Positions 3,572 to 18,563 of a stretch of 27,093 bases of DNA are shown one piece after another; positions within the stretch are counted from its first letter, which is position 1; each line of letters begins with the position of its first letter. A program made the position numbers and the translations under genes. The stretch lies in IMG/VR virus record IMGVR_UViG_3300035698_007521, positions 1-27,093 of that record. The stretch is one strand, 5' to 3'. The notes below the pieces were generated by a model. It ran no database searches. It was not told where the DNA came from and worked only from the letters and a program-made list of their open reading frames with translations. Source of the stretch: a virus.

Positions 3572-4452
3572 AAACTGTCCTCCATTGCTCTTAGCACCAA
3601 TTCCTTTACCACTGGTCTTACTTTATTTGTTTTAAACCCTAATTCTACATTGTCTTTAAAGCTTAATCCTATTTCAGCACTAGTACTCAATTTCTCTACA
3701 AATGCTGAGATTCGGGTATCACGTGCTTTTTCCTCTATTAAATATTCTTGCACTACGTTATCAATAACAATAGGGGCTGGGAAAGGTGTTACTACTCCGT
3801 CTTCATAAAGGTAAACTGTAGGCACTGTGTACTTTTTATCAGCTTTTTGCCTAAACAACCCACCGGGATTTATCAGGGTTTTCCCATCACGTTGTAAATA
3901 GAACCCCTGATGTACGTCACCACTTACAATGAGCTCATAATCAAATTGATCTAGTAATTCATCAGCCCCTATAGTGTCTGTATGTTCTCCCATAAAGAAT
4001 GGTATTTGTGCTGTAGTCGGATATACCGAACGATGACACATTGCTATACCTGTTCCGTTTGTCATTTCCTCATTGAACTGAAAACCAGTGATGGTTGATT
4101 CCCCCATCTTTGTAGTGCCTGTCGTATGGAGGATGACACCCGATTGTACCAATACCCAATAACTTGATTTACGAAGCCATTTTTGTGAATGGTAATTTGC
4201 ATCGTGATTGCCCGAGATTGTAAGTATAGGATACTCAGCTTTTTTTAACTCTTCCAACAATAAATTCTCTAGCAACTGTGTATTGCTCCCTGAGTCAAAT
4301 AAATCGCCTGCAATTAGTAACGGGCATTTATTTTCATTCATTAAATTAATTAACCACTGAAGCCGTGAACGCATTGTGGAGTACCATTCATCCACCCTAC
4401 ATCTGGGACGAGTATCTCTAAAATGGGTGTCTGATACGCAAATGATTTTCAT
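3556..4452 (-). CDS. SbcD/Mre11-like (gp47-type) nuclease subunit
   Basis: 298-residue calcineurin-type metallophosphoesterase of the Mre11/SbcD/T4 gp47 kind. Metal-binding motifs are in canonical order: SDTHF (Asp8, His10), AGDLFDSG (Asp50), SGNHDAN (Asn82, His83), MCHRS (His140) and GDVHQG (His181). The C-terminal about 100 residues form the capping/ATPase-binding region. It would be the dimanganese nuclease that, with the split Rad50-like ATPase, resects or opens DNA ends for recombination-dependent replication. ATG has an AGGGGG box and overlaps the homing endonuclease gene by 4 nt. Assignment rests on motifs and neighbours; high confidence. Confidence 0.85.
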   Translation of the reverse strand: MKIICVSDTHFRDTRPRCRVDEWYSTMRSRLQWLINLMNENKCPLLIAGDLFDSGSNTQLLENLLLEELKKAEYPILTISGNHDANYHSQKWLRKSSYWVLVQSGVILHTTGTTKMGESTITGFQFNEEMTNGTGIAMCHRSVYPTTAQIPFFMGEHTDTIGADELLDQFDYELIVSGDVHQGFYLQRDGKTLINPGGLFRQKADKKYTVPTVYLYEDGVVTPFPAPIVIDNVVQEYLIEEKARDTRISAFVEKLSTSAEIGLSFKDNVELGFKTNKVRPVVKELVLRAMEDSLCDLE

Positions 4453-5192
4453 TGTAACCCCCTACATAATGATGGAGCAAACTCTCCGAAGTATTTTATT
4501 TCAGCTTTTAATCTAGCATCTATAGCATCTTGTTTGTTTTTGAATTGACCTATATGTATTAATTTCCAATTCACACGTATGGATGCTACCCAAACTTTTC
4601 CTATTTTATGAAAATGAACCCCAGCATGTCCAGATGTATTTCTTTTTGATAAGCCTTTATTTCTTGCATTTTCATATGTGTCACACACCCTTAAATTGGA
4701 TTTTCCATTATCAAGCTTATTTCCATTTATATGATCAGTTACTTTGTTTTCTGGGGTATTTGCTATTATTTTATGTAAGAATACGTTATTTGTATCTAAA
4801 CATATACGTGCATACCCTTCTGGGCATTCATGCCAGCAATGTTGCTTTACCTTATCGTAATCTTCTGTATCTATAGTAGTATAATTATCTGTGTTGAAGA
4901 AATATATTTTAGTTATACTCCCATCAATCTCAGTCCGATTATATTTTTTATTTCTTGCACGAAGTTGTTCTTTATTTATGCAACCACAACTTTGAGAGTT
5001 GCCATTGCAAAGATTATATTTCATAACATAGGCGGTATTACCACATTCGCATACGCATTTGTATTTCCAGTTCTTTGGAGATACTTTCTTCCCATCTCTA
5101 ACCTTAGATTTCTCATCTACTTCGATAACAGTTAGTCTGCCATACACATCCCCTCTTTCTAAATACTTCGGATACTTTGTACATAATGCCAT
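4449..5192 (-). CDS. Free-standing HNH homing endonuclease with AP2 DNA-binding domain
   Basis: 247 residues. An N-terminal zinc-binding region has KCVCECG (Cys46, 48, 50) and SCGC (Cys69, 71). The HNH core reads LHKIIAN (His140), TDHINGNKLDN (Asp153, His154) and NLRVC (Asn166). An AP2-type DNA-binding domain follows at about 187-237 (SGHAGVHF ... WVASIRV ... IGQFKNKQDAIDAR). This is the usual domain order of phage HNH-AP2 homing endonucleases. It sits between the N-terminal Rad50-like gene (3-nt gap) and SbcD (4-nt overlap) with its own GAGGAGGAA ribosome site, so it looks like an intergenic homing insertion that has been fitted into the operon. Confidence 0.85.
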   Translation of the reverse strand: MALCTKYPKYLERGDVYGRLTVIEVDEKSKVRDGKKVSPKNWKYKCVCECGNTAYVMKYNLCNGNSQSCGCINKEQLRARNKKYNRTEIDGSITKIYFFNTDNYTTIDTEDYDKVKQHCWHECPEGYARICLDTNNVFLHKIIANTPENKVTDHINGNKLDNGKSNLRVCDTYENARNKGLSKRNTSGHAGVHFHKIGKVWVASIRVNWKLIHIGQFKNKQDAIDARLKAEIKYFGEFAPSLCRGLQ

Positions 5193-9407: not shown

Positions 9408-9932
9408 TACGTCTTTAGCACTGTTTTCAATTGGTTCCACGTTTTTTCTATCAACAACTTTATGCTGTATCTCCACAGGGGGATTATCTACGGTATCCGC
9501 TGTGGACACACTATCGTTTAGAGAAGGCTGAACAGCCCTTGTAGCGTCTTTGTCACCCAAAGTGGTACTTGGACACGTCTTTTCGTTTTCGGACTCGTCA
9601 ACAGCCTCCTCATGCGTTGCAACATCACCTATTGTTACTTCAGATGTGTGCCCAATACCTGTTACTGTTTCATCTTGGTAAGGTTCAGGTATATCAATAA
9701 CAGTACCTGTTTCTTTGTCTACAATGGCATCACCCTTCTTTTTATACCCACGGTCTTTTAAAAAAGCCCATTCTTTTATTGTAGTAAATAGTTTTATTGA
9801 ACCAAACTTATTAAGAGTTGTTACCGTGATAATTCCTATGATAACTACCGCAAGTATACCTATAACGTACTTACCATAGCGTATAAACCAATTAACTATT
9901 TTTGTCCATACTGCTTTCCACTTTATTGTCAT
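9387..9932 (-). CDS. Membrane protein with long acidic tail
   Basis: 181 residues from ATG 9932, chosen for its 4-nt ATGA overlap with the upstream transglutaminase-like gene; a start at 9974 lies deep in that gene. A short Lys/Trp-rich N-terminus precedes one transmembrane helix (about 18-40, IGILAVVIIGIITV core), then a basic juxtamembrane part and about 110 residues of disordered, Thr/Glu/Asp-rich tail ending in KRK. Expected single-span topology. Its coupling to a cysteine-protease-like gene suggests the two work together; function unknown. Confidence 0.6.
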   Translation of the reverse strand: MTIKWKAVWTKIVNWFIRYGKYVIGILAVVIIGIITVTTLNKFGSIKLFTTIKEWAFLKDRGYKKKGDAIVDKETGTVIDIPEPYQDETVTGIGHTSEVTIGDVATHEEAVDESENEKTCPSTTLGDKDATRAVQPSLNDSVSTADTVDNPPVEIQHKVVDRKNVEPIENSAKDVLTNKRK

Positions 9933-10471
9933 GTTTTTAACCCCGCTTTTTGTATTCCCGTAAATCTTGTCCACATTAGATTTTCTTTAGTATATTTAGT
10001 CCAGTGACGTGTTACCGCCTGTACTGCTTCATCAAAATTAGGAAAACGTCCATATGGTTTGTAATCCAGTAGCCAAAACTTGCCTCTGTACTTGGCAACA
10101 CATATTACATGTGAATCGCCTATCATATGCTCTTTAGTAGTAACCACCACTTCTTGAGGCAGGTGTCCATTGCACCTACACCATAGATACCATATCCGGG
10201 CCCAATTATCGCAATCAACATTATATGTTATATTACTAAAAAATTGATTGGGGTTGTCATAACTGAAACTATGATCAACAATCCCACCTAGCAAATCAGG
10301 TTTGTATTCATATTTATTTATAAAAGCACTAAACTCTTTTAAAGGCAAGTGCTTAACTGTATCCCATATAGTAGATTTAGTAGGGTTTATACGCTCAAAG
10401 ATTTTATTCAATTTGTGTTCAGTATGTGGTCTAATCAGTTTTACGTATAATAGAAACAGTAACTTTTTCAT
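9929..10471 (-). CDS. Transglutaminase-like cysteine protease family protein
   Basis: 180 residues. DCDNWARIW (Cys87), DSHVICV (His121) and WLLDYKP (Asp136) occur in the order and spacing of the Cys-His-Asp triad of transglutaminase/papain-like folds, and the strands around His and Asp look right. The N-terminal KKLLFLLYVKLI is hydrophobic and could be a weak signal or a membrane-surface helix. It might cleave or cross-link proteins or peptidoglycan peptides; the substrate cannot be told. It overlaps by 4 nt both the upstream coiled-coil gene and the downstream membrane protein gene. Confidence 0.55.
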   Translation of the reverse strand: MKKLLFLLYVKLIRPHTEHKLNKIFERINPTKSTIWDTVKHLPLKEFSAFINKYEYKPDLLGGIVDHSFSYDNPNQFFSNITYNVDCDNWARIWYLWCRCNGHLPQEVVVTTKEHMIGDSHVICVAKYRGKFWLLDYKPYGRFPNFDEAVQAVTRHWTKYTKENLMWTRFTGIQKAGLKT

Positions 10472-10743
10472 GACTCTAATCCCTTTGACTCTTCTAACGC
10501 CTCTTTCTCTGCTCTCAACACCTTTATTTCAGCTTTAAGCTTTACACGCCTTTCCTCATTACGTTTAATATTGTCCACATCTTCTACAGCACTTTCCATT
10601 CGACTCGCTCTATACTGTAGTTCTTCAATTAGTCCTTCCATGTAACTATAGTTATGGGTTTTGTGCATGGCTCTCATGTCTTCTAGTATACTACATAGAT
10701 ACCTTGTGGAATACCTACTATTTATTACATCATGTTCTGTCAT
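10468..10743 (-). CDS. Coiled-coil protein
   Basis: 91 residues, ATG after AAAAGGAGAACAAA. The C-terminal half (NIKRNEERRVKLKAEIKVLR and on) is a clear charged coiled coil, and the N-terminal half is helical with aromatic residues. Function unknown. Confidence 0.55.
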   Translation of the reverse strand: MTEHDVINSRYSTRYLCSILEDMRAMHKTHNYSYMEGLIEELQYRASRMESAVEDVDNIKRNEERRVKLKAEIKVLRAEKEALEESKGLES

Positions 10744-10755
10744 TTTGTTCTCCTT

Positions 10756-10944
10756 TTATATTCTAGTAATCGTTCTAACTTTTTCAACAAAAAGGTAATC
10801 ACCGTCTTCTGCTTCAATAAAGTTTTTGAAATTATCTTCATAAAGGAATCCACAGTTAGGGATGTACCCACATATATCCAAACAGTCGTTGAGAACACAT
10901 TGTCTACAATTATCCCTTGGTTTACTAATTTGTTTTACCCTCAT
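10756..10944 (-). CDS. Small Cys-rich protein
   Basis: 62 residues with five clustered Cys at 13, 16, 21, 25 and 31 (CRQCVLNDCLDICGYIPNCG), then an acidic segment. Suggests a zinc or Fe-S site. A GGAGAAC box lies a rather long 13 nt or so upstream of the ATG. Comparable Cys clusters start the genes at 10946-11398 and 26303-26512. Confidence 0.5.
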   Translation of the reverse strand: MRVKQISKPRDNCRQCVLNDCLDICGYIPNCGFLYEDNFKNFIEAEDGDYLFVEKVRTITRI

Positions 10945-10945
10945 C

Positions 10946-11398
10946 TCACTTTAGTTCTCCTTTTATATGTACAAAATTTCCATTACTATTCATCTGTGTA
11001 ATAGTATATAGGCTATCGCTTAAATAGTCAAGTAGTAAAAGCTCTAAATACATGGCATAAATTGACTTATCTATGAAACCCAAATATATATTCATGTCGA
11101 AAGAACTTGGCTGGTAATAACTCTTCTTTTTCATTTTAACACTGGATGCGTACACACTCATATTAGGCTCTGTGTAGTGACTAGCTAGTACATCTAGTAA
11201 ATGTCCTCTGGCAACGGTGTAGCACTGTGTACGGGCACTAAACAATTCCCATGTGTTAACAACAGGAAATGGGAACGCGTCTGCTACAAGGAGTTCGCCT
11301 TGACGATACCACGGACAACCCCCTGCTATTATTTCCACGTCTTTCTTAATACATTCATTGAACAACCAGAAATGGCATTCATCGCTTTTACAAATCAT
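10946..11398 (-). CDS. Hypothetical protein with N-terminal Cys cluster
   Basis: 150 residues, ATG after ATAGGAGTTTAAT. Cys3, 8, 16 and 28 (MICKSDECHFWLFNEC and GGCPWYRQG) look like a metal site. The remainder is a mixed domain rich in Tyr and Leu (YLELLLLDYLSDSLYTI). No family recognised. Confidence 0.5.
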   Translation of the reverse strand: MICKSDECHFWLFNECIKKDVEIIAGGCPWYRQGELLVADAFPFPVVNTWELFSARTQCYTVARGHLLDVLASHYTEPNMSVYASSVKMKKKSYYQPSSFDMNIYLGFIDKSIYAMYLELLLLDYLSDSLYTITQMNSNGNFVHIKGELK

Positions 11399-11399
11399 A

Positions 11400-12047
11400 T
11401 TAAACTCCTATTTTATTGATTACACAATGCTTTGTCTCGTCTCCAAAATCTAGGGCAAAATGAATTACTATATAGTTATTAAGAACTATAGACATAGGAG
11501 CCATATAATCATTGTTTATTACATCACCAACCATTTGTACTTCAAACATAGGGTGTACTTCACTCATATCTATAAATAGTAGTTGATCCTCCTTTAAATA
11601 GGGAGTAAACACTACCGTGATTTTCTTACCCACTGTCACCACGGGTTCCATCATTAAGAGTGTACGTAGTCCGTAGTCCATCCCCAATACCCCTAGTACA
11701 TTGTGCATCATTTTGTTATTACAGAAAATAGTTACAGGAGCTTTGCTGTTTCTGTCTATTATAGCATTATCAATTAAGCACCTACTTAACTCTACTCCAC
11801 CTGCACAAATACTGTTTGTGGTTATACTCGCTGTTGCTCCTTTTGCATCTACAGTAGTACCACAGATACCTGTAAGAGTACGCCCAATACCGTGAAGGCT
11901 AACGTATTCCATATCTTTTATAATCTTTTGTAGCACAGGTTTAAAATAAAGTGCATCAAATATAGGTAAGTGGTTTACATAGTGTTGCATTCCTTCCTGT
12001 GTTGTGGTTAGCAACGTATTACTCGTCTCCCAATTTACTTGGCTCAT
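11400..12047 (-). CDS. Protein resembling the C-terminal part of SU10-type (DUF5309) major capsid proteins
   Basis: 215 residues from the ATG at 12047. Residues about 38-65 (IIKDMEYVSLHGIGRTLTGI) resemble the KRDIEyaLLxG-xRxxxGI helix-and-turn of DUF5309 capsid proteins. Then come an Asn/Thr-rich strand, a helix plus APVTIFCNNKMM (a 'p-x-i-v-v-sp-k' strand-helix) and a strand pair ending TVGKKITVVFTPYLKEDQLL like the late beta-sheet of that HK97-type fold. The usual N-terminal arm and about 100 residues are missing. No ribosome site precedes ATG 12047; an upstream ATT at 12110 is discussed separately. It lies right after the reductase, far from any structural gene seen here. The alternative is an unrelated fold; similarity is judged by eye. 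Confidence 0.4.
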   Translation of the reverse strand: MSQVNWETSNTLLTTTQEGMQHYVNHLPIFDALYFKPVLQKIIKDMEYVSLHGIGRTLTGICGTTVDAKGATASITTNSICAGGVELSRCLIDNAIIDRNSKAPVTIFCNNKMMHNVLGVLGMDYGLRTLLMMEPVVTVGKKITVVFTPYLKEDQLLFIDMSEVHPMFEVQMVGDVINNDYMAPMSIVLNNYIVIHFALDFGDETKHCVINKIGV

Positions 12048-12111
12048 TACACCGTTTGTACAAGTTTTAATCTCTGCTATCAGTTCTTTGTAAATATTTG
12101 TTATTTTAATT

Positions 12112-14979
12112 TTATACTACCTCACACGAGGCTCCACCGCCACACGCTAGTTCACCTTTTAAATCGGTGTTGTCTTGATCTTCCACTACATGTTTTAAAT
12201 CTACTTGTGTTAGATGCTTCATAGCTTCCTCATACTCTAGTTTTGTACAAGTTTCAAAAGGGGCTTGCTTATATGTGCCACTATCATAGGGTAAAACTGC
12301 TATCCCATTATAATGCTCACGGTTTTCCCACATCCAATCCCCTACAAGCGACCACTCGTTTGGTTTTACTTGAATAGTGCATGAAACATTGTTTTTGTTA
12401 ATTCCTTTCTTATGTGCAGGTGCTATCCAATTAGTATGTAAATAACGTACACGCTCTAGCGTATCTATAGGAGATTCACTTCTTAATATAGAGCCCTCAG
12501 GTGCTTTCTGTGGTACTTTTATAATGGCAGTTGTTTCTGGTTTAAAGAAATCGTCCTCAATTAATTCGGGATGAATAATAGATAAATAATTATAGATGGC
12601 TTCATTTTTGTTTACACGTATACGTCTCCAATAGTATTCATCATACCACGCATGAACTCCACTACTTGTGCCCAATACTATGCTTGCTGTTCCACTTGGT
12701 TTAACCACGCAACTACGTGATCTTGGGTTGATGCCAATCAGTTTTGCCACACGTGCATTTTCTTTCTTCACTATTTTAGATGCTTGTTTTAAATCGTATT
12801 CATAAAGTTTTTCTGTAGCTACTCCTGTTAATGAAACGCCAATGAGTGCTTCTTTTTCAGTGGTATCACGCCATATATCTCGTAGGTAATGAAAATCTGT
12901 ATAGCTTGCTTGTAATGTTGCTATAAAACTTGCGTGTCGTGATCGCGTGTTTAAATCTTCCTGAGATTCTATGTTTGAGAAGTTGATTTCAGCTAAATTG
13001 CACATTTGGCAAGATCGGAGACTTACTTCCCCACAGTTATGTACCTGTACACCATTCACCCATCCGGCATTTGTTGACGGTTCACTGAAATCGTACACTT
13101 TTTGCATACCATTATCCTGTATACTTCTAACCATAACAGCTTTTTCAAGCACAAGTGATTTTAAATCAGTGTTCTTATATACTTGCAAGAATCCAATGTA
13201 TTTATGAAACAACCGTACAGACAGAGCCCTAGTTATATTTATATCGTAACTCTCTCTGCATTGATACTCTCCGTTTGCAAACATTACCTTTTTAGTTTTA
13301 TTAGTAGTAACGTATGAATCAATATCAAAATCAGCTTTTAGTGCTTCTACAAGTGAGTCAGCTAAAGAACGGCATGTCGTTTTGTACGCTACTCTATGGT
13401 GTTTTATTACACAGCCGTTAGCTGAATACATTCCTCGTAAGAAAGACGCTTTCTCCCCTGTGAACACAAGTGAATCATAAAAAGATGATGGAAACACTCT
13501 ATCAGGTAATGACTCTGATGAAAAACCGTGTTTGTTTAAATCACCATTAAACCCATTGATGTAGTACGCCCGTTTATTCTCCACTTTTTCCACGTTAAAC
13601 AACTTAAATATTTCTAAATCCTTCTTCCCTAAATTTACTTCTAGTCCTTGGTGATCTTTTGATTTCAGTCTACCCAAACAACCATCCCCTTGTAAAAACC
13701 CATACTGTTCATAGGGGTAAATATGCGGTCTGAATTCTGTTGTATCTTCTGTTAACCGTTTTCCTTTTAAATTCTCTGCTTTTACCCATTCATCATTTAC
13801 TAAAAATGGGTGATCGGGGGTACAGGTTATTATTTCCTTATTTGATAATTTTAGCTTTATGGTATTTTTGTAACCACTCAACCACACCTTTCCCAACGAA
13901 ATGGTTTTGTTACCCTTACCCACAAGATAAGCTTGTTTACCGTCCAACTCTTCAAAGGTTTTATACCCTGTAGATGTTAATAGTTCCATATCACCTGTAA
14001 AACACGGGTTTACAATCCACTCCTCTGAATTACTGAGGAAAATACCGGGTTCACCACTACCACTTGCTTCTATCTTCTCCCACAACGAATTAAAGGTAGG
14101 GCGATCAAGCTGACTACGTAACAACATCACACTATTATTAGCTAATGCACGTTGTGGATTTGATTCGTACCAGTTACCAAACTTACACTCTAACATCTCT
14201 GTATCTTCTAATGAGAACAAGCAAATCATAGCGGAACGCCTTATACCTCCGCTTAACACTGCATCAGCAATAAAGCATTGTATATCATGGGCTTCAATAG
14301 GCTTCAACTGAGTAGCGTGTCCTCGTGTTGCAATAGCGTTTTCAAAAATAGAAGTGATTTGCGTTAAACAATTACGTAGTGGTTCGGGGCCGGGAGCCTT
14401 ACCCCCGCTTGTGAGTAATAAAGCACCCTTTTGTCTAATATCCCTAAAGTCAAAATCTATTTCGCGCTTGTTATAAAAATATGATTCCACAAGTACTTTA
14501 ATAGCATCAGACCATCCTTCGATACTATCACCTATTAAATACCGTTTCTTTCTTTGTCTGCCTTCAGGACGCTGTACACCAAGCACAGGAGGTAACTTTC
14601 GTATATGATGACGTTGCACACTATACCCTACTCCTGCACCACTTAATAGCAAAAACATGGTTTCACTAAATGCATCGGGGTGGTCAATATGGAGACCACT
14701 GCAATTGTATAATCTACTTGGATTTAATTCTATAGGTGTGCCCGTAAATTGGAGGGCGCGCATGCTTGGTAAAAGCTTCTTGTTGTACACGTACTCATAA
14801 GCATTATCTATTTGAGTTTTTAACTCAGGAAACTTTTTTATGTGCATCATTTTATTTCTTGACACAGTTTCGTCCCATGTTTCCCTACGTTGCTCACTGG
14901 GTAAATACCGTGCGTACTTCATATACGCTGTTATGTCTGATAGTATTTGAGAAGCAATGGGTTTATTAGTATGATTCAT
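12112..14979 (-). CDS. nrdJ: Class II (adenosylcobalamin-dependent) ribonucleoside-triphosphate reductase with intein
   Basis: 955-residue precursor from ATG 14979, chosen for AGAAGG six bases upstream; longer in-frame starts lack this. Sequence such as LPSMRALQF, SGAGVGYSVQRHH and the C-terminal CGGGASCEVV fits the monomeric RTPR-type class II reductases. Predicted residues: redox Cys93 (YNCSG) paired with Cys660 (MCNLAEIN), the active-site segment NP-CGE with thiyl Cys649 and Glu651, and a C-terminal reducing pair Cys946/Cys952. No ATP cone is visible. An intein (residues 326-648) interrupts the NP/CGE motif, leaving a mature enzyme of about 632 residues. It reduces NTPs to dNTPs without oxygen, supplying phage DNA synthesis, and needs cobalamin from the host. 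Confidence 0.85.
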   Translation of the reverse strand: MNHTNKPIASQILSDITAYMKYARYLPSEQRRETWDETVSRNKMMHIKKFPELKTQIDNAYEYVYNKKLLPSMRALQFTGTPIELNPSRLYNCSGLHIDHPDAFSETMFLLLSGAGVGYSVQRHHIRKLPPVLGVQRPEGRQRKKRYLIGDSIEGWSDAIKVLVESYFYNKREIDFDFRDIRQKGALLLTSGGKAPGPEPLRNCLTQITSIFENAIATRGHATQLKPIEAHDIQCFIADAVLSGGIRRSAMICLFSLEDTEMLECKFGNWYESNPQRALANNSVMLLRSQLDRPTFNSLWEKIEASGSGEPGIFLSNSEEWIVNPCFTGDMELLTSTGYKTFEELDGKQAYLVGKGNKTISLGKVWLSGYKNTIKLKLSNKEIITCTPDHPFLVNDEWVKAENLKGKRLTEDTTEFRPHIYPYEQYGFLQGDGCLGRLKSKDHQGLEVNLGKKDLEIFKLFNVEKVENKRAYYINGFNGDLNKHGFSSESLPDRVFPSSFYDSLVFTGEKASFLRGMYSANGCVIKHHRVAYKTTCRSLADSLVEALKADFDIDSYVTTNKTKKVMFANGEYQCRESYDINITRALSVRLFHKYIGFLQVYKNTDLKSLVLEKAVMVRSIQDNGMQKVYDFSEPSTNAGWVNGVQVHNCGEVSLRSCQMCNLAEINFSNIESQEDLNTRSRHASFIATLQASYTDFHYLRDIWRDTTEKEALIGVSLTGVATEKLYEYDLKQASKIVKKENARVAKLIGINPRSRSCVVKPSGTASIVLGTSSGVHAWYDEYYWRRIRVNKNEAIYNYLSIIHPELIEDDFFKPETTAIIKVPQKAPEGSILRSESPIDTLERVRYLHTNWIAPAHKKGINKNNVSCTIQVKPNEWSLVGDWMWENREHYNGIAVLPYDSGTYKQAPFETCTKLEYEEAMKHLTQVDLKHVVEDQDNTDLKGELACGGGASCEVV
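12115..12125 (-). promoter_or_regulatory. Ribosome-binding cassette overlapping the reductase stop codon
   Basis: Minus strand GTGAGGTAGTA. The same 11-mer occurs at 9041-9051 and 8853-8863, where it overlaps a gene's last codons and sits just before the next ATG (GAGGTAGTAAAATG). Here it is followed by TAAA-ATT, not an ATG, suggesting initiation of the capsid-like gene at or near 12110. Confidence 0.5.
13036..14004 (-). mobile_element. LAGLIDADG intein in the reductase active site
   Basis: 323 residues between NP and CGEVSL. Splicing blocks are present: Cys1 (CFTGDMELLTSTGYKTFEEL), block B TCTPDHPFL with His, block F KVYDFSEPS, and a terminal HN followed by Cys. A DOD-type endonuclease lies in the middle: first motif YGFLQGDGCLG, second FLRGMYSANGCV, in which Asn replaces the usual catalytic Asp. 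Splicing residues are intact, so splicing is expected, while endonuclease activity is uncertain. Confidence 0.85.
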
Positions 14980-15013
14980 AGACATCCTTCTTTGTACCCA
15001 AAAAATGATACAC

Positions 15014-15042
15014 ACTGTACTTACTTTTCCATATCATTGCAA
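15014..15042 (-). promoter_or_regulatory. Weak promoter-like element upstream of the reductase
   Basis: Minus strand reads TTGCAA (15042-15037), 17 nt, TACAGT (15019-15014): four of six matches in each hexamer. It occupies the roughly 77-nt stretch between the stop at 15056 and the reductase start, one of the larger gaps in the operon. Confidence 0.3.
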
Positions 15043-15055
15043 TTATTCTTTTCAC

Positions 15056-15439
15056 TTAGTATCCTCTTTGATTAATTAGTTCAGGCACTTCATAAGGTTG
15101 TTTTATAAAATGATTTTCTGCTAGTTCTCCGGTTAAAATTATTTCACCGCTATCTCTACCCATAGTAACTCTTGGTACACATTCCCCCCTTGCTAATAGT
15201 CTAAAGATAGCTCTTGCATCATCAATAAAAATAGGTTTATGTACACCATCTAAACAATTCCCATGTATAAGTTGTTTGTGTGTAATCATCTTAGGGGGAT
15301 TAAACCCCATATTTTGTGCAGTTTGTTTTATTACATCCATTGTGGTTCTGTAACACACAATTACACCATCATTAGCCACTGCATCCATTAACAAATCATA
15401 TGTTTTACCTGTAGCAATGCCCCTTACATCAACTATCAT
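15056..15439 (-). CDS. Small P-loop NTPase-like protein
   Basis: 127 residues. DVRGIATGKTYDLL at 4-17 is a Walker A-like loop one residue shorter than usual between the glycines (GxxxGKT), and PIFIDDARAIF at 69-79 fits Walker B with Asp73-Asp74. Between them VIVCYRTTMDVIK resembles a helicase motif Ia strand. It is too short for a full helicase; it may be a minimal ATPase domain or a helicase remnant. TAATG overlap with the upstream gene; GAGGTAGAATA ribosome site. Confidence 0.5.
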   Translation of the reverse strand: MIVDVRGIATGKTYDLLMDAVANDGVIVCYRTTMDVIKQTAQNMGFNPPKMITHKQLIHGNCLDGVHKPIFIDDARAIFRLLARGECVPRVTMGRDSGEIILTGELAENHFIKQPYEVPELINQRGY

Positions 15440-15612
15440 TATTCTACCTCTTCTTTTTTAACCACTTTTTTACAGTCTGACTTATTAAATTTATAAAATT
15501 CATTATCTTTTAAAGCCCATAACGTTTTACTAAATGGTGTGACTTCAAAAATCTCACCTATTTTATCACCGTACCACAGTTTTGCTTTTGCACGTTTTAC
15601 TTGTATTTTCAT
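15439..15612 (-). CDS. Small SH3-like basic protein
   Basis: 57 residues: MKIQVKRAKAKLWYGDKIGE, then IFEVTPFSKTLWALKDNEFY and a basic end. The pattern of short strands with WYGDKIGEIFEV suggests a small beta-barrel (SH3/KOW-like). ATG follows AAAGGAGAACAAA. It overlaps the end of the nuclease gene by 47 nt in another frame, and its stop overlaps the next ATG (TAATG). Function unknown. Confidence 0.6.
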   Translation of the reverse strand: MKIQVKRAKAKLWYGDKIGEIFEVTPFSKTLWALKDNEFYKFNKSDCKKVVKKEEVE

Positions 15613-15982
15613 TTTGTTCTCCTTTGTTTACATTCACTATATCAAAAAAATGTTCTGCATCCATAATAACAATGGGTTTGCTCTGGTTTTTCTTATGTAC
15701 TACCAACCATTGTCTACCTTCTTTAGTGTTAGCTTTTGCTTGCTCAATATAGGCGTATGAACTCACTGTCTCAGTGTTTTTACATTCTATATCGTAGGGA
15801 AACAAATCATATAGCGTTTTATCTCTTATGTACACATCACATCCTGCCTGTCCCATCTCTCTTGAGTGAATTTCACATAAATCATCTTGTTGATCAAACA
15901 CTATACCAAACAATTTGGCTACTTTTTTAGCAACCCAATATTGTAGGTTACGCCCCTTTGCTTTTCTACTCGCTGTTGTCAC
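15566..15982 (-). CDS. PD-(D/E)XK nuclease, possibly a Holliday-junction-resolvase-like enzyme
   Basis: 138 residues. RKAKGRNLQYWVAKKVAKLF at 6-25 is the N-terminal helix. Then SREMGQAGCDVYI (Asp49) and FPYDIECKNTE (Glu66, Lys68) form the D-x(n)-ExK active site of the PD-(D/E)XK superfamily, followed by YIEQAKAN with a supporting Gln. The S-x-x-MG-x-x-G-x-D and FPxxIECKN patterns match a small phage endonuclease group often annotated as resolvase-like. A role in resolving branched recombination intermediates fits the neighbouring recombinase; it could also degrade host DNA. Start overlaps the upstream stop by 4 nt. Confidence 0.65.
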   Translation of the reverse strand: MTTASRKAKGRNLQYWVAKKVAKLFGIVFDQQDDLCEIHSREMGQAGCDVYIRDKTLYDLFPYDIECKNTETVSSYAYIEQAKANTKEGRQWLVVHKKNQSKPIVIMDAEHFFDIVNVNKGEQNENTSKTCKSKTVVR

Positions 15983-16320
15983 CTAGTCTCCCCACCATTA
16001 GCAACAGTAAACTCATTGGCTTCCACCATTGTATCAATCATTTCTTTTAAGTTCAACAAATCCTCACGCCTTAAAGCAAATATCATAGACGCCCCTATTA
16101 CATCTCCTTTGGGTGTTAACGTGTACATACTTGATTCTTGTGCATATGGTAAATCAACTTCTAACCCTTGTAGATACTCTGACCGTCTTTTTGTTTTATC
16201 GCTTTTACCACCGGTTAGTATCATGTGTCCATCACCTTCTTGTTGCACCGCCACTAACCAATAAAATGGCGTATTATCTTTTCCCATTTCTTTTTGTATA
16301 ATCGCATTACTTGCTTTCAT
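15979..16320 (-). CDS. Hypothetical protein
   Basis: 113 residues, ATG after AAGGAGAATTT. Mixed alpha/beta (FYWLVAVQQEGDGHMILTGG strands, LLNLKEMIDTMVEANE helix). Lies between the recombinase and the nuclease, so a recombination accessory is possible but nothing in the sequence shows it. Confidence 0.5.
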   Translation of the reverse strand: MKASNAIIQKEMGKDNTPFYWLVAVQQEGDGHMILTGGKSDKTKRRSEYLQGLEVDLPYAQESSMYTLTPKGDVIGASMIFALRREDLLNLKEMIDTMVEANEFTVANGGETR

Positions 16321-16333
16321 AAATTCTCCTTAA

Positions 16334-17440
16334 TTAAAACCTTGCCTTTCTTGTATTATTTAATCGATCTTCCTGTTCTTCCCACTTGGCTACAACCCTA
16401 GTTTTTAATTCAGCTTCTAGTTCGTTGTCATATATGTGTTGACATAAATCATCTCTCTGCAACAGCATTTCATCCCAATCCAATTTGTGTTGTTTTGTGG
16501 GGCGTAATTTACGGCTTTTATCTGTGCGCAAGTCATACAGAAAATCTATATTAGATGCTATGTCGTCAACACCAATAGAGAAGTCAAGTATTTGCACACA
16601 TTTTCTATAGGGACGTGGTGCTTTGAGTTTATCATTATCAATTAGCACAGGCATACCCGAACGCAGTCCACTTGCCTCATCTTCCATTTCTCGTTTCTGT
16701 ATAGTGGCAATCCACTCCACGCCACGGCAATAGAATTGTAGGGCTCGTCCACCACTACGCACTTGTTTTTTCTCAAACATAGAAGCATTTATTTTATCCC
16801 TGACCTGACTTATTATAACCAGTACTACATTTGTGCCTTCAATTCTACTAGCTATATCGGGAAAGAATTCTTGACTCAGAAACTTTTGTTTATCCATTGC
16901 GTATGTGCCATCGGTAAATTCTTTTCCATCTAATGATTTTTTGTATCGTTCATTCCCTCTATCAACTGTTGCTTTTGAAGTTAGCCCATCTAACGAGTCT
17001 ATGACATAAAATCCAATTTCTTTTGATTTCAATGAATCCGTGAATTTACGTACATTGGAGTAAAGCTCTTCAACCGTAGAAGAGTGGGGCATGTCATCAC
17101 TAATAATAGGTTTATCCATGCCATACATATGCTGTACATCGAATGAAAACCCATTTTCGGCATCATCATATACCCATTTAAAACTGTCTCCATATTTGAA
17201 ATAGTTTGCTACTATGGACTGTACTGCAAAAAATGTTTTGCCGCTACTACTGTCGCCTACTATATTATATATACTTCCTACTCGGTATCCCATAGCACCT
17301 TTCATCCCACCTAATTCCAAATCACGTAGTGTGCTTCCCGTAGTAATATATTTTGCTACTTTCTTCGTTTTACCTTTTTCCAATTCTGCTACAACTGCTT
17401 GTGCCACAGGTTTTTTCTTTGTCGTTACTTTCGTTGCCAT
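16334..17440 (-). CDS. uvsX: RecA/UvsX-like strand-exchange recombinase
   Basis: 368 residues. RecA core: Walker A GDSSSGKT at 62-69, the acidic YDDAENG segment (Glu95) in the place of RecA's catalytic Glu, Walker B FYVIDSLDG at 144-152, and VLVIISQVRDKINASM at 206-221 followed by a basic loop corresponding to the DNA-binding L2. The Lys-rich N-terminus replaces RecA's oligomerisation helix region, and the C-terminus is helical and charged. It would form filaments on ssDNA and drive strand invasion for recombination-dependent replication and repair together with the adjacent ssDNA-binding protein. ATG follows AAGGAGAAAGT; a hairpin lies just upstream. Symbol by T4 analogy. Confidence 0.75.
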   Translation of the reverse strand: MATKVTTKKKPVAQAVVAELEKGKTKKVAKYITTGSTLRDLELGGMKGAMGYRVGSIYNIVGDSSSGKTFFAVQSIVANYFKYGDSFKWVYDDAENGFSFDVQHMYGMDKPIISDDMPHSSTVEELYSNVRKFTDSLKSKEIGFYVIDSLDGLTSKATVDRGNERYKKSLDGKEFTDGTYAMDKQKFLSQEFFPDIASRIEGTNVVLVIISQVRDKINASMFEKKQVRSGGRALQFYCRGVEWIATIQKREMEDEASGLRSGMPVLIDNDKLKAPRPYRKCVQILDFSIGVDDIASNIDFLYDLRTDKSRKLRPTKQHKLDWDEMLLQRDDLCQHIYDNELEAELKTRVVAKWEEQEDRLNNTRKARF

Positions 17441-17492: not shown

Positions 17493-18563
17493 CTAGTTAG
17501 CCATGATACATGATTTGAAATTTTCTCTGTGTTTCTTCTGACAAACTGTGCACTCATCGGTTTCCATGTTGTCTGTTCCAAACTCGTGGTCATAAGGACA
17601 GGTATTTGTATTAATTTCTACTTCTATTTCAACAGCTTCTTCAACCTCTTCCTCTTCTTCCTCTTCTACTTCTACTTTTGGTTTTGGTTTCCTCGTAGTT
17701 CTTTTCTTAACCTCTTTAACAACAACAACTTCTTCGTCTTCGTCATCGTCGTCTGGTTCTTCCACAGGGGCTTCACGTAACATTGCCTCAATCTCTTCAT
17801 CACTGTGAATATTTAACAACCCATCTAAACTGAATGCACCGTGGTCAAGCATTTCGTCTTTGAACTCAAAATTTACTATGTCTTCATTATAAGACTCTTC
17901 CCTGTCTTCAAAGTCAAAGTCTTTGTAGTTAAAGAACTTTCCACCCTTAAATGCTTTTGCTTTTGCACGAAATAATACTGACTGCCCGTCTTCAGGGTCT
18001 ACGTAATCAACAGGGTCTCCTGTTTCAGCTTTAGCACTTGCCTTTTCCAACAACTCAGCCATGAAAAAGTAATGTACTTCATCAAGAATTTGAATCTGTC
18101 CACCATTCTCATCTTCTTCATCTGGTTTTAAATTGATGCCATTCATAATAGCACGTCTTTTTGGTTTGTAACTGTCTAGTAAATCATCATACTGATCTTG
18201 CTTTAGATTCAAGTCATCTGCATCTAGTTCCTGTAGTCGTGCACGCTCTGCACAGATTACACAAGGTTTGCCAAATGAACGTTTCTTACAAATTACTTTG
18301 TCAAAACTTTGATTGAAATTCTTGTGTACATACAAATCCAACATGTACCCGTGTTTACCTGCTTTCTTCCCCGGCATTAAACCAGTGGTGTATGTGAAAG
18401 GAATGATGTCAACCGCATTATTTCCTGCACGTGCTTTGAAATATGAACGATTTTCCCCATCCATATTCAAATAGTTCTGTGCTTTTACCCCACCACTCTT
18501 TATATTGTTGGTGTTAGTAACAGCTTCCTGTTGTAATTCTTCTTTTAAATTAAATTTACCCAT
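17493..18563 (-). CDS. gp32-like single-stranded DNA-binding protein with extra C-terminal zinc finger
   Basis: 356 residues. The N-terminal region and OB-fold core (RSYFKARAGNNAVDIIPF) contain a gp32-like zinc site, His80 ... Cys92, Cys101, Cys104 (VICKKRSFGKPCVIC). An acidic, low-complexity region runs from about 265 to 315, as in gp32-type proteins whose acidic tail binds replication partners. Unusually a further Cys/His cluster follows it (Cys322, His326, Cys338, Cys341, His345, Cys352). It should coat ssDNA and cooperate with the recombinase and helicase. ATG after AGAGGTAAAAACA. Confidence 0.7.
   Translation of the reverse strand: MGKFNLKEELQQEAVTNTNNIKSGGVKAQNYLNMDGENRSYFKARAGNNAVDIIPFTYTTGLMPGKKAGKHGYMLDLYVHKNFNQSFDKVICKKRSFGKPCVICAERARLQELDADDLNLKQDQYDDLLDSYKPKRRAIMNGINLKPDEEDENGGQIQILDEVHYFFMAELLEKASAKAETGDPVDYVDPEDGQSVLFRAKAKAFKGGKFFNYKDFDFEDREESYNEDIVNFEFKDEMLDHGAFSLDGLLNIHSDEEIEAMLREAPVEEPDDDDEDEEVVVVKEVKKRTTRKPKPKVEVEEEEEEEVEEAVEIEVEINTNTCPYDHEFGTDNMETDECTVCQKKHRENFKSCIMAN

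Follow-up and report, generated by a model that had tools for sequence, protein, structure and literature searches.

The replication block and its capsid-like gene

The window, the whole stretch of DNA analyzed here, is a 27,093-base record of a virus of bacteria, with genes mostly on the minus strand. Read in the direction of transcription, one block of the window runs from a gp32-like gene through a UvsX/RecA-like recombinase gene and a nuclease/resolvase-like gene to a class II ribonucleotide reductase (RNR), followed by a capsid-like gene and a gene for a 150-aa protein of unknown family (Table 1). The initial annotation had described the capsid-like gene as encoded directly behind RNR and away from any structural gene. 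The position behind RNR is right, and the distance from structural genes fits the 27 kb record as seen, which is itself a fragment. A head neighborhood of the kind that surrounds SU10_MCP-type genes (portal, scaffold, and other head genes) was not found around it: the gene lies between RNR and the 150-aa gene, the product of which had no Pfam, NCBIfam, or PADLOC match and one chance-level PHROG match (E 0.77). RNR carries an intein at about 13036-14004 (ends placed by eye), before a CGEVSL stretch, with a score of 34.2 bits to an intein N-terminal model.

Table 1. Positions of the capsid-like gene, its putative expression signals, and the surrounding genes in the window.
Feature	Position	Strand	Remarks
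gp32-like protein	17493-18563		Pfam gp32, E 2.3e-7
UvsX/RecA-like recombinase	16334-17440		PHROG, E 2.7e-29
Nuclease/resolvase-like gene	15566-15982
Class II ribonucleotide reductase (RNR)	12112-15015	minus	Immediately upstream of the capsid-like gene; intein-bearing
GAGGT, ribosome-site-like motif	12119-12123	minus	Within the RNR gene end, 8 nt before the in-frame ATT
In-frame open 5' extension	12048-12110	minus	21 codons, no ATG/GTG/TTG; first codon ATT (12108-12110)
Capsid-like gene	11400-12047	minus	ATG at 12047, stop 11400-11402; 215 aa from its only ATG
AGGAG	11405-11409	minus	In the last codons of the capsid-like gene; placed for the next gene's ATG (11396-11398)
150-aa gene, unknown family	10946-11398	minus	Next gene after the capsid-like gene

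The gene had been annotated as spanning 11400-12110. Its only ATG lies at 12047, but the frame is open upstream from this codon to the RNR stop, which may explain the longer coordinate, and would encode 236 aa if read from 12110. In simulations of 100 windows, stop-free frames did not exceed 201 codons, short of these 236. Codon scores, based on a table trained on the neighboring genes with which the frame is compared, were 0.193 for the main frame, better than the five other frames of the stretch, and a similarly coding-like 0.199 for the 5' extension (neighbors 0.10-0.32).

The start of translation is less clear-cut. Motifs of the AGGA/GGAG/GAGG type are located 4-18 bases upstream in 26 of 30 other genes (hand-picked from 51 gene pieces of the window), and none precedes the ATG at 12047, so expression of the gene is not certain. 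The in-frame ATT at 12110, a rare start codon, is preceded at 8 bases by GAGGT inside the end of RNR. Judged from these motifs, the ATT behind RNR appears to be a likelier start than the ATG, a lost start codon being the alternative. Promoter-like sites numbered 11 in the region 10500-15600, compared with a shuffle mean of 18.7, and none was located at the junction of RNR and the capsid-like gene; it is the gene order that suggests their co-transcription.

Homology to SU10-type capsid proteins and the parts retained

Sequence comparisons identify the product of the capsid-like gene (hereafter the window protein) as a true, diverged, and shortened homologue of SU10-type major capsid proteins (MCPs), the family that it had been noted to resemble. 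Residues 39-212 matched positions 113-290 of 292 in the Pfam profile SU10_MCP (PF17236) at 16.4 bits (E 0.0069; 15.3 bits in a six-frame search), below the curated cut-off of 24.1 bits. Pfam alone left doubt, and relatives of the phage were therefore sought through RNR. This search matched 590 stretches, and within the best 80 of them the closest phage found was an 85,009-base contig (L007/G001, IMGVR_UViG_3300001335_000085) that is collinear with the window: of the 51 window gene pieces (RNR counted as two), 19 have homologues that follow the window order and 31 lack a homologue at E 1e-3, so that the capsid-like gene is the sole piece to match out of order.

Significant homology to members of the SU10_MCP family emerged from every one of five approaches. 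A protein search of the G001 record with the window protein recovered the MCP of the collinear phage at E 2.7e-7, and pairwise BLASTP aligned the two with 23% identity over MCP residues 121-332 (E 2e-9 for one comparison). A profile of nine MCPs matched in hhalign with E 2.2e-7 and probability 93.6 (one comparison). We also built a hidden Markov model (HMM), without the window protein, from SU10-type MCP hits (78 distinct frames with lengths of 280-520 aa, out of 90 hits in total) and searched 22,738 open frames of at least 40 codons from the window and the loci (ten loci overlapping others left out). The capsid-like frame was recovered at E 9.7e-6 over profile positions 119-317 of 321, and only one other short frame was returned (E 0.82). 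Single-sequence phmmer matched the window protein to several MCPs at E 1e-6 to 1e-5, those of L139 and L124 scoring above the L007/G001 MCP. Finally, the window protein reached a PSSM score of 46.5, whereas 100 shuffled sequences had a mean of 18.9 and a maximum of 29.1.

That the resemblance is due to chance, an option the initial annotation had raised, is extremely improbable: the Pfam score under the curated cut-off, the lack of a PHROG match at E 10, and a single-sequence PDB search that returned no capsid and only two dUTPases (E 0.27-0.28) would favor it, but independent tests at E 1e-5 to 1e-7 and a PSSM score far above shuffles oppose it, and the record search, hhalign, HMM, PSSM shuffles, and simulated frame lengths led us to reject it. 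Searches of the window protein against other collections gave one chance-level match in NCBIfam (ArsD, E 0.14) and no defence family in PADLOC at E 10 or less.

The window protein was correctly described as lacking the N-terminal arm (N-arm), and it lacks the E-loop as well. The portion of the SU10_MCP profile that comprises both (positions 1 to about 112) is absent, with the match beginning at profile position 113 (Pfam) or 119 of 321 (HMM), and the spine helix, the A domain, and the C-terminal P-domain strands are kept. MCP parts cut near the matching point measured 207-234 residues in 78 of 79 cases and 312 in one. The window protein has 215 residues; therefore the whole C-terminal two thirds are present, with no detectable N-arm or E-loop. 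One MAFFT alignment put an N-arm in the 5' extension; this candidate was rejected, as 69 of 200 shuffled sequences scored as high as the 48 residues before the match.

Within the retained part, sequence conservation is low and the core pattern persists. The structure and tree alignment comprised 54 MCPs, drawn from sets of 79 and 55 references. At the 44 columns conserved in at least 80% of MCPs, the window protein keeps 13 residues, replaces 28, and has gaps at three (31/44 lost), whereas each of the 54 MCPs keeps at least 68% (lowest in the L007/G001 MCP, 68%). Mostly hydrophobic columns remain hydrophobic in the window protein at 34 of 44 positions, compared with 31 of 106 polar columns. 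Both the GKG..EPLAKTG loop and the GG..TDFG motif are largely replaced. In MCPs, the EPLAKTG loop is situated between the last long strands, and its place in the HK97 alignment suggests that it is the P-domain loop. With the E-loop absent and the EPLAKTG loop replaced, the window protein would thus be a capsid protein without E-loop and with a remade P-loop. E- and P-loops clasp neighboring subunits and hold capsid hexamers together, according to the Sau-Thoeris report (PMC11312562). The loss of intersubunit elements from a protein that has kept the core speaks against an ordinary capsid subunit. Compared with the SU10_MCP family and its solved relatives by sequence (SU10 7z45, Pa223 9ny2, VP1 9in6), the window protein has the same core and the same element order, but it falls below the family cut-off and lacks the first approximately 110 profile positions and the EPLAKTG loop.

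Structure prediction against the HK97 fold, which had been proposed as a check on the annotation, yielded a capsid fold when the MCPs were included. The model made with 54 aligned MCP parts (mean pLDDT 76, pTM 0.71; residues 1-26 and 178-180 below pLDDT 50) displayed the P-domain spine helix (residues 32-52), the A domain, and the expected strands in the HK97 element order. All 50 PDB matches listed by Foldseek were phage, satellite, or other virus-like capsids and encapsulins; the VP1, Pa223, and SU10 capsids came first (best E 2.2e-8, VP1), followed by encapsulins and satellite capsids. VIA-align gave Z 11.3 at best and Z 9.3 to HK97 (2ft1_F, model residues 23-214 on chain residues 192-383). 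TM-scores in the PDB list were modest (query-normalized 0.34-0.50), so the match is a core match. The model from the sequence without alignment reached a mean pLDDT of 31 and carries no information on the fold; the predicted HK97 fold is based on homology together with the MCP-aligned model. Encapsulins share the core fold (VIA Z about 9-11 among the matches listed); these HK97-fold compartments keep the E-loop and assemble, whereas the window protein has no E-loop.

Origin of the gene and its possible function

The initial annotation suggested looking for the main capsid gene elsewhere in the genome, and the collinear phage provides one. The G001 record contains a single SU10_MCP match (134.4 bits), an ordinary MCP of 342 aa (L093:9502-10527) encoded behind terminase-, portal-, and scaffold-like genes (judged by eye). 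Although homologous to the window protein and its best neighbor in the tree, this MCP is full length, with N-arm and E-loop, and is encoded behind the genes just named. In L007, just 9 bases separate the end of RNR from the ATG with which the homologue of the 150-aa gene begins; no capsid-like gene lies between them, and the MCP gene is about 32 kb away. The capsid-like gene thus fills a gap that measures 9 bases in L007, so it was either inserted in the window lineage or lost in L007. The window protein was placed beside the L007 MCP with support of 98/89 in a tree of 55 rows and 94/85 in a smaller one of 24 rows chosen by hand. Its branch is long (3.0-3.5 amino-acid changes per column), and the AU test kept three alternative placements (p 0.12, 0.20, and 0.26). 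These trees tentatively favor descent from the MCP of the phage itself.

At E 1, neither phages nor plasmids yielded an orthologue of the window protein, and none came from viral contigs searched with its own peptides, a search that reaches close relatives only. The two-row profile A5 retrieved only a true MCP from viral contigs, on two contigs with identical MCPs, and nothing from genome contigs; the 14 virus records reached through loci gave no match other than this MCP, again on those two contigs. Likewise, the 78-MCP HMM revealed no second short capsid copy in the examined loci, many of which are short contigs. A candidate orthologue, suggested by its near-equal length (216 aa), follows RNR in Microcystis phage Mel-JY01 and proved unrelated. 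Relatives of this hypothetical gene (L002 9946-10596) occur in phages of Vibrio, Alishewanella, and Salicola, and in others.

Of the explanations offered in the initial annotation, a duplicated capsid domain with a new job fits best, intersubunit elements having been lost and the core retained; a role as a scaffold found no support. We hypothesize that the gene encodes a capsid core unable to assemble, expressed with the replication genes, and repurposed as a decoy or interference protein, a reading that its sequence and position make plausible if still short of probable. Translation would start at the ATT behind RNR, at a modest level and at the time of the replication genes, before capsids are made; the gene location is what suggests this early synthesis with replication proteins. 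The product would fold as a capsid core that cannot join a lattice, given the absent E-loop and the remade P-domain loop, and it may still carry surfaces that others recognize. It could then occupy partners that recognize capsid proteins, most likely capsid-sensing host defences or, alternatively, the capsid or scaffold of competing phages.

Within this reading, a self-derived immune decoy is the tentative first choice, although on its own somewhat unlikely. Such an early non-structural protein, made unable to assemble by deletion of the N-arm and E-loop and remodeling of the P-domain loop, would block CapRel- or Thoeris-like sensors before true capsids appear, the sensor being occupied by the early core without being triggered. 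CapRel-SJ46 and Sau-Thoeris are considered here as proposed targets and not as relatives; both are reported to recognize HK97-fold capsid proteins (PMC9712102, PMC11312562). CapRel-SJ46 is described there as switched on by newly made MCP (PMC9712102), and Sau-Thoeris as sensing assembled MCP, with the hexamer needed (PMC11312562). A decoy unable to assemble would not mimic the trigger of Sau-Thoeris, for which assembly is required. A further point against a decoy is that a core without surface loops might escape a capsid sensor.

Interference with other phages accounts for a smaller share of the same reading and is doubtful by itself. Here, the window protein would be a capsid fragment with a dominant-negative effect, and phages that compete or superinfect would have their capsid or scaffold poisoned by it. 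Lacking intersubunit elements, such a core could attach to a capsomer under assembly and halt its growth, and blocking the virion assembly of an invader is a known strategy, shown for tails (PMC10884400); however, the phage's own related capsid would need to be spared.

A minor structural or assembly role in the phage's own head is unlikely, though less so than interference taken singly. The window protein could be a paralogue at special positions, or it could nucleate or cap capsomers. Its homology to MCPs and the known virion roles of capsid paralogues are consistent with this. In T4, the vertex protein gp24 is a paralogue of gp23, near full length, encoded in the head gene cluster, and part of the virion. 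The two are alike in that a capsid paralogue is retained alongside the main capsid gene, whereas the window protein is short, and its gene lies in the replication block and outside any head module. Against a role in the head also stand the missing N-arm, E-loop, and conserved loop, and the closest phage found, in which the MCP gene lies in a head module (by-eye reading of its neighbors) and a second gene of this kind is absent.

It is about as doubtful as interference that the gene is a non-functional remnant, a capsid fragment inserted by recombination that has no proper start codon and is drifting to loss. The only ATG without a ribosome site, the lack of a standard start behind RNR, the loss of family-conserved residues, and the absence of the gene from the closest phage found would be expected of such a fragment. 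However, a neutral frame should hold stops after about three changes per column, and none of the 100 simulated windows had a stop-free frame so long. Codon usage resembles that of the neighbors, the hydrophobic core is retained, and the gene end carries the next gene's ribosome site. A frame that remains intact and coding-like despite 3.0-3.5 amino-acid changes per column suggests that it was kept as a protein, and we infer selection for a protein product after so much change. The remaining share of probability falls to some other non-structural role.

Capsid proteins are known to trigger bacterial immunity, and capsid paralogues are known within virions. In the part of the literature covered (titles and abstract openings), no truncated capsid paralogue in a replication operon was found; judging from this partial coverage and the loci examined, the stripped core in a replication block is the new aspect. 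If the core lacks the parts that join subunits and is made with the replication genes, the virus itself would be using a capsid fold for a non-structural purpose. Capsid-derived restriction occurs in other virus groups, and interference, if true, would be its phage counterpart. The decoy, if true, would offer phages a simple way around defences that sense capsids.

Further genes of the window and the collinear phage

An HNH endonuclease-like gene (4449-5192, minus strand; HNH_3, E 2.1e-5, just under the cut-off) is situated in the window between SbcC-like and SbcD-like genes. In L007 the counterparts of these two genes are direct neighbors (open frames 13997-15175 and 15194-16114) with no HNH gene in the gap. 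Besides the capsid-like gene, this is a second one that the window has and L007 lacks at the matching place; it is probably a free-standing homing endonuclease. Inteins also appear to be present in the collinear phage, where RNR, the homologue of the window gene at 9929-10471, and a terminase-like gene look intein-bearing, and RNR is split by an endonuclease-like frame (both judged by eye; L007 8283-9053, 9122-10921, and 11550-13073, and L091 8190-10694). Among the few plus-strand genes of the window is a class 3 lipase-like gene (105-734; Lipase_3, E 2.7e-11), which has a homologue at 50421-51038 in G001.
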